Of a DNA stretch of 64,000 bases, positions 45,332-47,547 are shown piece by piece. The stretch's first letter is position 1. Each line of letters begins with the position of its first letter. The translations under genes were made by a program, and so were the position numbers. Below the pieces are notes generated by a model, which searched no databases, was not told the origin of the DNA, and was given only the letters and a program-made list of their open reading frames with translations. This stretch comes from Pseudomonas sp. R5(2019) (lineage in GTDB: Bacteria > Pseudomonadota > Gammaproteobacteria > Pseudomonadales > Pseudomonadaceae), in assembly GCF_009905435.1 (NCBI RefSeq), contig NZ_JAAAMT010000013.1:1-64000 (forward strand), in the 5' to 3' direction.

Positions 45332-45948
45332 TCATTGGACTCTCTCCAGTAATTTCGCTCCGTCAGGCCGCAGCTCGCCCTTGGGCGAGACATGTCGATA
45401 GAGCGTCTGATGGGTAATACCCAGCTCTTCACACAAAACCGATACCTTGGTTTCCGGCTGCCCCATGGCCGCCATCGCCAGGCGTAGTTTGGCAGCGGTC
45501 ATCTTGAACGGGCGCCCCCCCTTTTCTGCCGCGAGCACGCGCCGAAACGAGCCCGGCGACCGTCCGCTCGGAAATCAGCTCCCGCTCGAACTCTGCCAGT
45601 GCCGCGAAGATCCCGAACACCAGCTTTCCCGCCGCAGTAGTCGTGTCGATGGCCGCACCGTGGCCGGTGAGCACCTTCAGTCCTACGCTACGCGCGGTAA
45701 GGTCGTGGACAGTGTTAATTAAATGGCGAAGGCTACGTCCGAGTCGGTCGAGCTTCCAAACCACCAGGGTATCCTTCACGCAGGGCCTTCAGGCATGCGG
45801 CCAATCCGGGCCGATCATCTTGCTGTCCCGAAGCCATGTCCTCATACAGATGTGTAGCGGCCACTCCAGCAGCGATCAGAGCATCCTGTGGCAGATAAGT
45901 CGCCTGGGAGCCATCCGCCTTCGATACCCGCATGTAGCCGATCAGCAT
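45332..45948 (-). pseudogene. Tn3-type serine resolvase with two frameshifts
   Basis: Starts MLIGYMRVSKADGSQATYLP (catalytic Ser in RVSKADGS) to CLKALREG. One base is missing, and the next frame continues DTLVVWKLDRLGRSLRHLIN to ARGRKGG. One extra G in a run of seven (near 45,514-45,520) then shifts again to GRPFKMTAAKLRLAMAAMGQ and the helix-turn-helix VLCEELGITHQTLYRHV. All expected domains are present in order, so only two single-base indels separate it from a working site-specific recombinase of a Tn3 transposon. Confidence 0.85.
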
Positions 45949-46316
45949 ACCGTCTCCATTGTCACAAATACGTTCGATTATGTGACGGTTTGCGCCGGAA
46001 ACTTCCGGCCGTCAAAATTTGTCACTTATCCCGTAATTTAGTCTAAGACATGCAAGCGGCTCTTCTGGATCGTAATGTGACAGATATTCGAGATGAACTG
46101 ATCGAGGAGATGGACAGGCCCTTGTCATTTCCAGAAGTGCAATCAACTTTTGACATCGGGTGCAGTCGTCTTCTGAAAATGACATGTCCGGATGGTCATG
46201 GAATCCGCAGCAATAGGCTTGCTCACCGCAAAATCCCAGTTTCGGTACGACAAAATTATCGGTGGGGCAAAATGTGGGGGCAAAATTCTAAACTGGTAAA
46301 AAATGTCATCCATAAA
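45949..46316. other. Possible res region and unassigned sequence
   Basis: Upstream of the resolvase start the bases include short inverted motifs (CGGAAACTTCCGG around 45,997-46,009, TTTGTCAC/GTGACA copies) that may be part of a res site. A 102-codon plus-strand frame from 46,050 (MQAALLDRNVTDIRDELIEE and on) has no ribosome site and no family I know. At 46,261-46,287 a near-tandem repeat of GTGGGGGCAAAAT type is seen. Confidence 0.35.
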
Positions 46317-46348
46317 AAAATCCAAGGACCGCTAAGTCCTTGGATTTT
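46317..46348. terminator. Terminator downstream of the tRNA-Pro attachment site
   Basis: A 13-bp perfect stem (46,317-46,329 with 46,336-46,348), AAAATCCAAGGAC at its left, ends in TTTT and has A-runs on the other flank, so it can work in both directions. It lies 12 bases beyond the CCA end of the tRNA sequence and is its natural terminator. Confidence 0.85.
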
Positions 46349-46359
46349 CTATAAATAAA

Positions 46360-46408
46360 TGGTCGGGACGGAGTGATTCGAACACTCGACCCCTTGCACC
46401 CCATGCAG
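46360..46408 (-). other. Prophage attachment site: 3' part of tRNA-Pro(GGG)
   Basis: Read on the minus strand, the 49 bases are the 3' portion of a tRNA: the anticodon arm with GGG in CATGGGGTGCAAGG, a T-arm containing GTTCGAATC, an acceptor strand CCGTCCCG and ACCA. The 5' half is absent: bases to the right diverge at once (phage sequence). This is the typical left-over copy created when a phage integrates into a tRNA 3' end; an intact tRNA-Pro should stand at the far end of the prophage, outside the window. Confidence 0.82.
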
Positions 46409-46588
46409 CGGATGAAATACGCGTAAGTCATTGATATAAAATAGAAACACCCTTTCTCAAGCCCCACCAAAAACCGTGATTTCCGCGCTTTTGCAAACGG
46501 AAGCACGCGGCTTCCAGCCAGGGTTTTGCGCACAGTCGACGGTTTTCAAGACCGATACGAAGATGCCCGCCCGCCGCCCCCTTGGAAC
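46409..46588. other. Phage arm next to the attachment site
   Basis: No gene is recognised between the attachment site and the structured element. No integrase is encoded at this end, so it should lie at the other prophage end. Confidence 0.45.
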
Positions 46589-46677
46589 GAATTTCGGTTC
46601 CAAAACTTTTGGATTACCGCCCTGCTACAGGGCGCATTCCTCAAGGATGCCGCCCTTGAGTTTTGGAACCGATTTTC
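46582..46677. other. Branched inverted-repeat structure with a competing hairpin
   Basis: A 14-bp perfect outer stem pairs 46,594-46,607 with 46,659-46,672 and extends by three more pairs after an internal loop (46,589-46,591 with 46,675-46,677). Inside it are a 7-bp hairpin (46,618-46,624 with 46,628-46,634) and a 5-7 bp hairpin (around 46,640-46,646 with 46,654-46,660). The 5' arm can instead pair with TTGGAAC at 46,582-46,588 (with 46,597-46,603), so two folds are mutually exclusive. This looks like a structured RNA or DNA element; its strand and function are unknown. It lies about 180 bases before the small membrane-protein genes. Confidence 0.5.
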
Positions 46678-46857
46678 ACCCCTCCTCCGGCGTCCTGCCG
46701 ACCGAACACACTCCGCATATGCTTTCCATCGGTTGAGCTATGCTGAAGGTACGATTTCAAAGCCCGTAAAGAAAGAGATACACATAGGAATCCATCAAGC
46801 ATTTAACGGTGCCCATTTCACGTCAAACTTGTCGAATCACCTGCCATTGGAAAACCT

Positions 46858-47130
46858 ATGGAACAAGGAATCAGATCCAGAACTATAATCCTTGTGCAGT
46901 TCGCGACTCAGATCCTAACGGGTTGCACCCTATTCGCCATAATTGCACTTTCCTCTCTCGGTGCCAGTTGGCTGGCCCAGTATTTCACGTCTCTCCAATA
47001 CCCAAATTTCTTGATTTCATCTCTATTTATCGTCGGAAAAATTATAATAATAATAGACGCACTCACACTATTTATATTCATCCTTATTTCTATTATGCGC
47101 CTGATTCATGGCTTCAGGAGCATAAAATGA
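46858..47130 (+). CDS. Small two-helix membrane protein (prophage accessory)
   Basis: A 90-residue protein with two hydrophobic segments: IILVQFATQILTGCTLFAII near residues 10-30 and FIVGKIIIIIDALTLFIFIL near 57-77, and a basic tail MRLIHGFRSIK. The ATG follows TTGGAAAACCT, a weak ribosome site. The coding sequence is AT-rich compared with the phage structural genes. Its stop overlaps the start of the next membrane gene. I do not recognise a family. It may be a lysogenic-conversion or exclusion protein; a holin is less likely because it lies on the opposite strand from the lysis genes. Confidence 0.6.
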   Translation: MEQGIRSRTIILVQFATQILTGCTLFAIIALSSLGASWLAQYFTSLQYPNFLISSLFIVGKIIIIIDALTLFIFILISIMRLIHGFRSIK

Positions 47131-47483
47131 ATGGGAGCCCAGATACCCGAACGGGCTGGCGTCGGATTTTTGGTTCCTTAGCAACAGCAGAAGATGTTCA
47201 TTTCGCTAAAGAGATGATTCATAATGTTTTTTGGTTCCTCACTATTGGATTAGCAACGCTAGGGCTCGAACACTTGGTCCAGATAGCTGAAGACAGAGGC
47301 ACAAGCCAATCTATTATTGTGACATTCATAATTGTTAAATATGCCATGCTTGCCGCAGATGTAATCTGGTTTTTATCGCGACTGATCGTCGGGACCTATG
47401 GAGTTTGCGCACGCGCATACAAAGACATGCTCGCCATCAAACTCGCCATTAAAAACAAATCCGAAAAACCTCCAGCCGAGTGA
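47127..47483 (+). CDS. Second small membrane protein, coupled to the first
   Basis: A 118-residue protein: charged N-terminus MNGSPDTRTGWRRIFGSLAT, first helix MIHNVFWFLTIGLATLGLEH, second helix SIIVTFIIVKYAMLAADVIW, third shorter hydrophobic stretch (FLSRLIVGTYGVC), then a basic/acidic tail KLAIKNKSEKPPAE. ATG overlaps the previous stop as ATGA and follows AGGAG, a strong sign of translational coupling. No family is recognised. The pair may form one membrane complex. Confidence 0.7.
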   Translation: MNGSPDTRTGWRRIFGSLATAEDVHFAKEMIHNVFWFLTIGLATLGLEHLVQIAEDRGTSQSIIVTFIIVKYAMLAADVIWFLSRLIVGTYGVCARAYKDMLAIKLAIKNKSEKPPAE

Positions 47484-47547
47484 TCAGAACGTTGCATCTA
47501 ATTTCACTGCCAACGGGCAAATCAAAACAACTTAGCGTTCCACATTC

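Follow-up and report, generated by a model that had tools for sequence, protein, structure and literature searches.

The analysed window, a stretch of 64,000 nucleotides (64 kb) from Pseudomonas sp. R5(2019), contains one end of a prophage. The prophage is about 41.7 kb long and runs from a displaced tRNA-Pro 3′ half (46360-46408) to an intact tRNA-Pro(GGG) at contig positions 88032-88108, beyond the window. The tRNA-Pro halves share a 33-nt match with one mismatch (window 46376 versus contig 88048), and ARAGORN identified the intact gene as tRNA-Pro(ggg) (L022, 4032-4108). The resident tyrosine integrase of the prophage is encoded at contig positions 86833-87942. The element studied here (46582-46677) is followed to the right by minus-strand genes for a spanin-like, an endolysin-like and a tail protein. 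An overlapping plus-strand pair (46858-47130 and 47127-47483) encodes small membrane-like proteins, which had no Pfam or PHROG matches at E 0.001. Just outside the prophage end, at 45429-45948 on the minus strand, lies a Resolvase N-terminal domain (PF00239, on the 45429-45779 ORF), apparently divided between two overlapping reading frames. The element itself is crossed by unassigned short ORFs only, in agreement with a preliminary description that placed it outside recognised genes. The features of the region are as follows.

46360..46408, minus strand: tRNA-Pro(GGG) 3′ part, the displaced half at this prophage end, from its match to the intact tRNA-Pro
46480..46531, unstranded: att arm on the left side of the current tRNA-Pro integration module; contains TTTTGCGC (46524-46531) and is matched in other genomes
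46532, unstranded: module junction where two homologies meet, tRNA-Pro arm to the left and putative older tRNA-Ser att stub to the right
46533..46556, minus strand: tRNA-Ser(TGA)-like anticodon stem-loop, the putative old crossover core, with GACGGTTTTCAAGACCG at 46538-46554; same core in relatives
46582..46588, plus strand: TTGGAAC, proposed alternative pairing partner; absent at the equivalent place in relatives (by eye)
46594..46672, unstranded: 14-bp stem and its interior, the span of both inverted sites, from fold and repeat scan
46597..46607, minus strand: candidate arm-type site 1, core-proximal, reading GTTCCAAAACT on the plus strand; starts 56 bp past the core start at 46541
46625..46646, unstranded: conserved middle block, CTACAGGGCGCATTCCTCAAGG against the consensus CTACAGACCGCATTCTACAAGG, with 4 mismatches in the window
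46659..46669, plus strand: candidate arm-type site 2, core-distal, AGTTTTGGAAC; inverted relative to site 1
46689..46701, unstranded: GGCGTCCTGCCGA, which recurs between att modules and phage interior in other loci

The 14-bp perfect outer stem reported in the preliminary description is present as an inverted repeat in which 46594-46607 pairs with 46659-46672. It is unique of its kind: no second inverted repeat in the 64 kb window had perfectly matched 14-base arms separated by a loop of at most 80, and none arose in 20 first-order Markov simulations. Folding of both strands, which had been proposed as a check, gave a minimum free energy (MFE) of -43.4 kcal/mol on the plus strand (z -6.57) and -43.9 on the minus strand (z -6.18), values that none of 200 dinucleotide shuffles reached on either strand. 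The two enclosed hairpins, GCCCTGCTACAGGGC and CTCAAGG..CCTTGAG, can form as described; the MFE and centroid structures disagreed over the inner fold of the plus strand. The alternative pairing of TTGGAAC (46582-46588) has a basis in its complementarity to GTTCCAA (46597-46603), but TTGGAAC stayed unpaired in the MFE structure as well as in the centroid, so that this second fold exists on paper only. No terminator-like site (a GC-rich hairpin with a T run) was detected at 46200-47500.

Similar DNA was found at E 1e-5 in a single phage record, PseuP_222 (OP626800.1), whose host is P. protegens and on which no literature was found; no plasmid relatives were detected at the same threshold. The PseuP_222 match (71.2% over query bases 133-278) begins at the tRNA-Ser-like core and ends 3 bp before the 3′ end of the integrase gene, with no annotated feature beneath it. 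A pattern search using the shared block and site 2 recovered 43 viral-contig stretches and matches in 12 of 398 genomes of the genus. The 57 places, including the window and PseuP_222, were reduced to 48 distinct elements by removing eight duplicates and L028, which has a different gap and other surroundings and was left out as unrelated. The window copy differs from the exact pattern by two changes in the block, and was therefore entered by a relaxed pattern. Since the pattern fixes the block and site 2, independent evidence comes only from site 1, its spacing, the core and the neighbours.

Site 1, taken as the best match to GTTCCAWWACT at 25-75 bp upstream of the block, started 37 bp upstream of the block in all 48 elements. 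The motif was matched in full in 33 of them, at 10 of 11 letters in 11 and at 9 of 11 letters in 4. The element spanned 72 bp throughout the 48, save for 73 bp in the window and L070. A core, corresponding to the anticodon loop of tRNA-Ser(TGA) or tRNA-Cys(GCA), was absent from L073 and L077 and started 55-56 bp before site 1 in all of the other 46. The exact 17-mer GACGGTTTTCAAGACCG (46538-46554) has one further copy in the genome, inside tRNA-Ser(TGA). The putative crossover core is thus identical to a host tRNA segment, and short repeated sites lie at a fixed distance from it. An inverted pair in the genome G052 also spans exactly 72 bp with other letters (ATTCCGCATC..GTTGCGGAAC), and this one case suggests that the site architecture outlasts specificity. 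As to the conserved middle block CTACAGACCGCATTCTACAAGG, our guess is that it binds a bending or directionality protein. Allowing up to two mismatches, GGCGTCCTGCCGA occurred within 80 bp past site 2 at 12 of the 48 loci. L088, L090, L092 and L093 also have it, close to their TTTTGCGCA arm, and it was matched 59 times in total on both strands of 540,508 bp. It is possibly a shared linker for att-module exchange.

As a control independent of the motif, we queried with the PseuP_222 integrase. The best 80 of 231 relatives provided 53 distinct loci with at least 130 bp past the gene. Among these 53, the middle block (up to 3 mismatches) was found in 49, at 35-37 bp past the gene end, or at 51 bp in L156, whose gene match stops short. 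Counted among the 49 are L097 and L100, in which the block is damaged and the core missing. The four misses were L132, which has 4 mismatches and a core, and L141, L143 and L145, where unrelated sequence appears shortly past the gene. The tRNA-Ser core was exact in 44 of the 53 loci and carried one change in L139, L144, L146 and L154 (by eye). Residues 3-230 of the PseuP_222 integrase align to lambda Int (1z1b 4-243; E 1.5e-11), the arm-binding domain included, and the matching lambda Int structures comprised 1z1b, 1z1g and 5j0n; the Pfam domain Arm-DNA-bind_1 matched at E 0.0014, under the cut-off. In this family the site is therefore linked to a cognate integrase with an arm-binding domain (49/53); the prophage in the window lacks this integrase.

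Two layouts were observed, one in which the integrase gene adjoins the element and one in which it lies across the core from it (L027, L030, L047). The window resembles the second, with phage late genes and no integrase following the element. The element therefore goes with the core and not with any single neighbouring gene. At some integrase-anchored loci (L135, L136 and others) GTTAC replaces GTTCC in both sites of the element, and in L136 the opposite arm, which lies outside the stem, also contains direct repeats of GTTAC. The new letters appear in one of the two sites only in L139, L140, L144, L146 and L154, and GTTCC and GTTAC are mixed between the two arms in L116 and L147. Of 33 opposite arms scanned, 7 contained TTCCGCA repeats, 7 had GTTMCA-type pairs and 19 had neither, a variety that leaves the far-side assignment loose. 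Scoring the repeats of this arm proved difficult; a probable reason is that many of the loci represent integrated prophages, with host DNA on the far side.

The integrase now resident in the prophage shares 27% identity over 232 aa with that of PseuP_222. Its family was represented by the best 80 of 177 relatives, which gave 38 distinct tails of at least 90 bp, all on the gene side, many of them short and scanned up to 700 bp. At least two TTTTGCGC repeats stood just past the gene in 37 of these 38 tails, and three follow the resident integrase gene itself; the tRNA-Pro core was present in 32. Neither the sites of the element (TTWTGGAAC) nor its block nor the tRNA-Ser core was found in any of the 38. 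When 149 genomes were searched, the strain's own included, the tRNA-Pro left arm was partly matched in 8 others. Six of these eight matches stopped at query position 133, one at 134 and one at 135, corresponding to 46532-46534, and the homology to PseuP_222 starts at query position 133, where that to the tRNA-Pro arm stops. Judged from these two homologies, 46532 is the junction of two att modules.

The element was absent from the interior, about 160-250 bp each, of the eight other tRNA-Pro left arms (by eye). In L092 and L093 the TTTTGCGCA arm runs within about 20 bp into GGCGTCCTGCCGA-type sequence. In the window such sequence is met only past the element, and the tRNA-Ser core and arm thus account for about 145 bp in between. 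An exact stack of a TTTTGCGC arm and a tRNA-Ser core was found on no other viral or genome contig. The window holds the core and one arm only, together with an integrase of another family. When the strain's own genome (97% complete, 91 contigs) was searched with the PseuP_222 integrase, only the resident integrase and a 45-aa fragment were recovered. The fragment (L082; G000 C18 57635-57769; 78% over 45 aa) lies beside a tRNA-Cys and is apparently a trace of a past phage there. The variable loop of the strain's own tRNA-Ser(TGA) differs (by eye), which points to a probable origin of the stub outside this genome. The preliminary description was correct about the tRNA-Pro prophage context; the integration system to which the element belongs is another one, however, and uses tRNA-Ser or tRNA-Cys. 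We had also considered that the stub has decayed, given its 4 block mismatches, and dropped the idea because 0 to 5 such mismatches were counted among the 44 integrase-linked relatives whose core is exact. Lacking visible decay, the stub might still be used.

We suggest that the element is very probably one attP arm of a lambda-type heterobivalent tyrosine integrase of the PseuP_222 kind, orphaned by an exchange of integration modules. The apparent stem would be two inverted 11-bp arm-type sites (AGTWWTGGAAC), gripped by the N-terminal domain of the integrase. By analogy with lambda Int, the catalytic domain would cut at the neighbouring tRNA core, and the DNA between arm sites and core would be bent as a bridge. 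A tRNA-Pro module, bringing a different integrase and different arm repeats, would later have replaced the old integrase, the old opposite arm and the tRNA-Ser 3′ half. The tRNA-Ser core and one arm would have stayed behind as an orphan stub, presumably without function, bounded by the junction at 46532. The phage DNA processing site that was among the earlier proposals came near the mark, in that an attP arm is part of a site-specific recombination site. Several observations count against this reading. The letters of the sites need not change in step (L139, L140, L144, L146, L154, L116, L147), and the opposite-arm repeats vary. The covariation score and the percentage paired are above those of shuffles (see below), and the best plus-strand fold among the 48 elements belongs to the window copy, which a DNA site does not predict. 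The stub shows no visible decay, and its exact stack recurred on no other contig.

The principal alternative is a structured RNA whose fold matters, be it a regulatory RNA, an attenuator or a counterpart of sib, the lambda retroregulator of integrase mRNA. The fold is very stable on both strands. In native loci, moreover, the element comes directly after the stop codon of the integrase gene, a position from which a hairpin could control mRNA decay. Pairing tests were run on the 48 distinct elements, which served as the homologs for the covariation check that had been called for. RNAalifold returned a covariation term of 0, with none of 8 predicted pairs compensatory, and Rfam detected no family at gathering score over the whole window. 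In the structure of the preliminary description the outer stem was paired in 80.2% of cells, but the inner hairpins in only 30.7% and 66.4%. Its covariation score slightly exceeded that of shuffles (0.077 versus 0.062, reached by 4 of 500), as did its percentage paired (63.1 versus 61.3, reached by 0 of 500), and both were lower when the structure was slid. Such an excess of pairing would also be expected from two sites read by one protein, together with shared ancestry. Pairs changed on both sides were not in excess (6 of 26, versus 8.1 in shuffles), and one stem position was complementary in 15 of 48 elements only. On the plus strand the element of the window was the most stable of the 48 (-39.9 against a median of -22.55 kcal/mol), and its striking hairpins are therefore peculiar to it. 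The integrase on the far side of the core in L027, L030 and L047, and a geometry tied to the tRNA core, also argue against an RNA, which was rejected as the main explanation after the covariation test and which we consider improbable. An attenuator for the downstream membrane-protein pair was likewise rejected, as neither protein had a relative in the loci searched (L020, L024-L081).

Alternatively, the element might function within the tRNA-Pro attachment site of the present prophage, with the resident integrase acting on it. It lies less than 300 bp from the tRNA-Pro remnant and both of its sites are intact. The gene-side tails of the resident family, with their TTTTGCGC repeats and no TTWTGGAAC sites, stand against this, as do the eight left arms without the element and the direct passage from TTTTGCGCA to GGCGTCCTGCCGA-type sequence in L092 and L093, and we regard such a role as very improbable. 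A REP-like dispersed bacterial repeat or a packaging site, near the prophage end by chance, would suit the palindromic shape and intergenic position. It is the least credible of the explanations, and scarcely to be entertained: all 46 core-bearing copies are equally distant from a tRNA core, and the element is single-copy in its genome (other matches, at E up to 10, extend over 14-25 bp only), for which the dispersed repeat was rejected.

An attP arm is a known kind of feature. In lambda attP, the P and P′ arms carry arm-type Int sites, those of P′ being adjacent direct repeats, and the core is not in a tRNA gene; lambda Int binds the arm sites through its N-terminal domain and the core through its catalytic domain. 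The element resembles this arrangement in having a core with flanking arm-type sites, an integrase with an N-terminal arm-binding domain, and one arm adjoining the 3′ end of int. It differs in that its core is inside a tRNA gene and the sites of its one arm are inverted, with starts 61 bp apart (62 bp in the window and in L070), and enclose a conserved block. The attP of PseuP_222 is a direct homolog, sharing element, core and spacing with the window. Unlike the window, which keeps the core and one arm only, PseuP_222 has int and a repeat pair in the opposite arm (by eye).

Further parallels come from part of the published account of Cluster K mycobacteriophages (PMC3203893). There, 11-bp arm-type sites were predicted from repeats around the core, those of one side being inverted relative to the other, and close relatives differ in these sites as they do in the N-terminus of the integrase. 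The element has in common with those attP sites, as far as this part of the account describes them, the 11-bp length, the inversion and the differences among close relatives (PMC3203893). It is unlike them in that the Cluster K pairs flank the core, whereas here the inverted pair lies within one arm. The same part of that account records the loss from TM4 of a segment with integrase and attP, unlike the window, where half a site was kept (PMC3203893). A literature search over titles and the starts of abstracts, with most subscription papers outside its coverage, returned nothing on the element or on stacked half-att sites in prophages.

The arm was unannotated where we saw it, and is a modestly interesting trace of phage history. 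It provides a sequence definition for a family of attachment sites used by lambda-type integrases of Pseudomonas phages, with a rigid 72-bp arm of inverted sites beside tRNA-Ser or tRNA-Cys cores. A further suggestion is that traces of earlier integration sites can stay readable in prophages, by which the history of integrase swaps becomes testable. A caution follows for similar cases: where an inverted repeat close to the end of a prophage is very stable, it may consist of two arm sites of an integrase and not be an RNA.

The tRNA 3′ half lay beside the core in 40 of the 48 elements. Four had the core without it (the window, L033, L062 and L076), two were cut by a contig end and two lacked the core. 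The break was within about 2-11 bp of the core in all four (by eye). The position of the breaks is suggestive at most, since the cases number only four, two further elements are broken between the core and site 1, and only intact elements could be recovered by the search. Attachment sites may accumulate in prophages time after time: whenever the integrase is changed, the old core and one intact arm would be left beside the new site, because the exchange would break at or close to the old core, perhaps through recombination by the integrase and not at random. The stub would then be a second landing place, inside the prophage next to tRNA-Pro, for a superinfecting phage with the old integrase. 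We offer this generalisation as speculation that is rather unlikely to hold.

Several other loci showed comparable arrangements. L076 (G052, C1 near 2558086) is a second stacked attachment site, in which a tRNA-Cys remnant and a 72-bp arm belonging to it, of different specificity, precede the tRNA-Ser core stub and the element. An integrase with an Arm-DNA-bind_2 domain in L033 (1332-2504) accompanies a tRNA-Cys core stub and element at about 2700-2840, apparently another integrase swap. In L062 (1-280) a tRNA-Cys core stub and element are preceded by direct repeats of TTGGCCCAAGAA (by eye), which resemble arm sites and would belong to a further integrase. Finally, L088 (G173, C1 near 142405) has a GTTCTGGAAC/AGTAATGGAAC pair past a tRNA-Pro-type arm; the pair resembles the opposite arm of the PseuP_222 system (by eye), and the locus is perhaps another mixed site.
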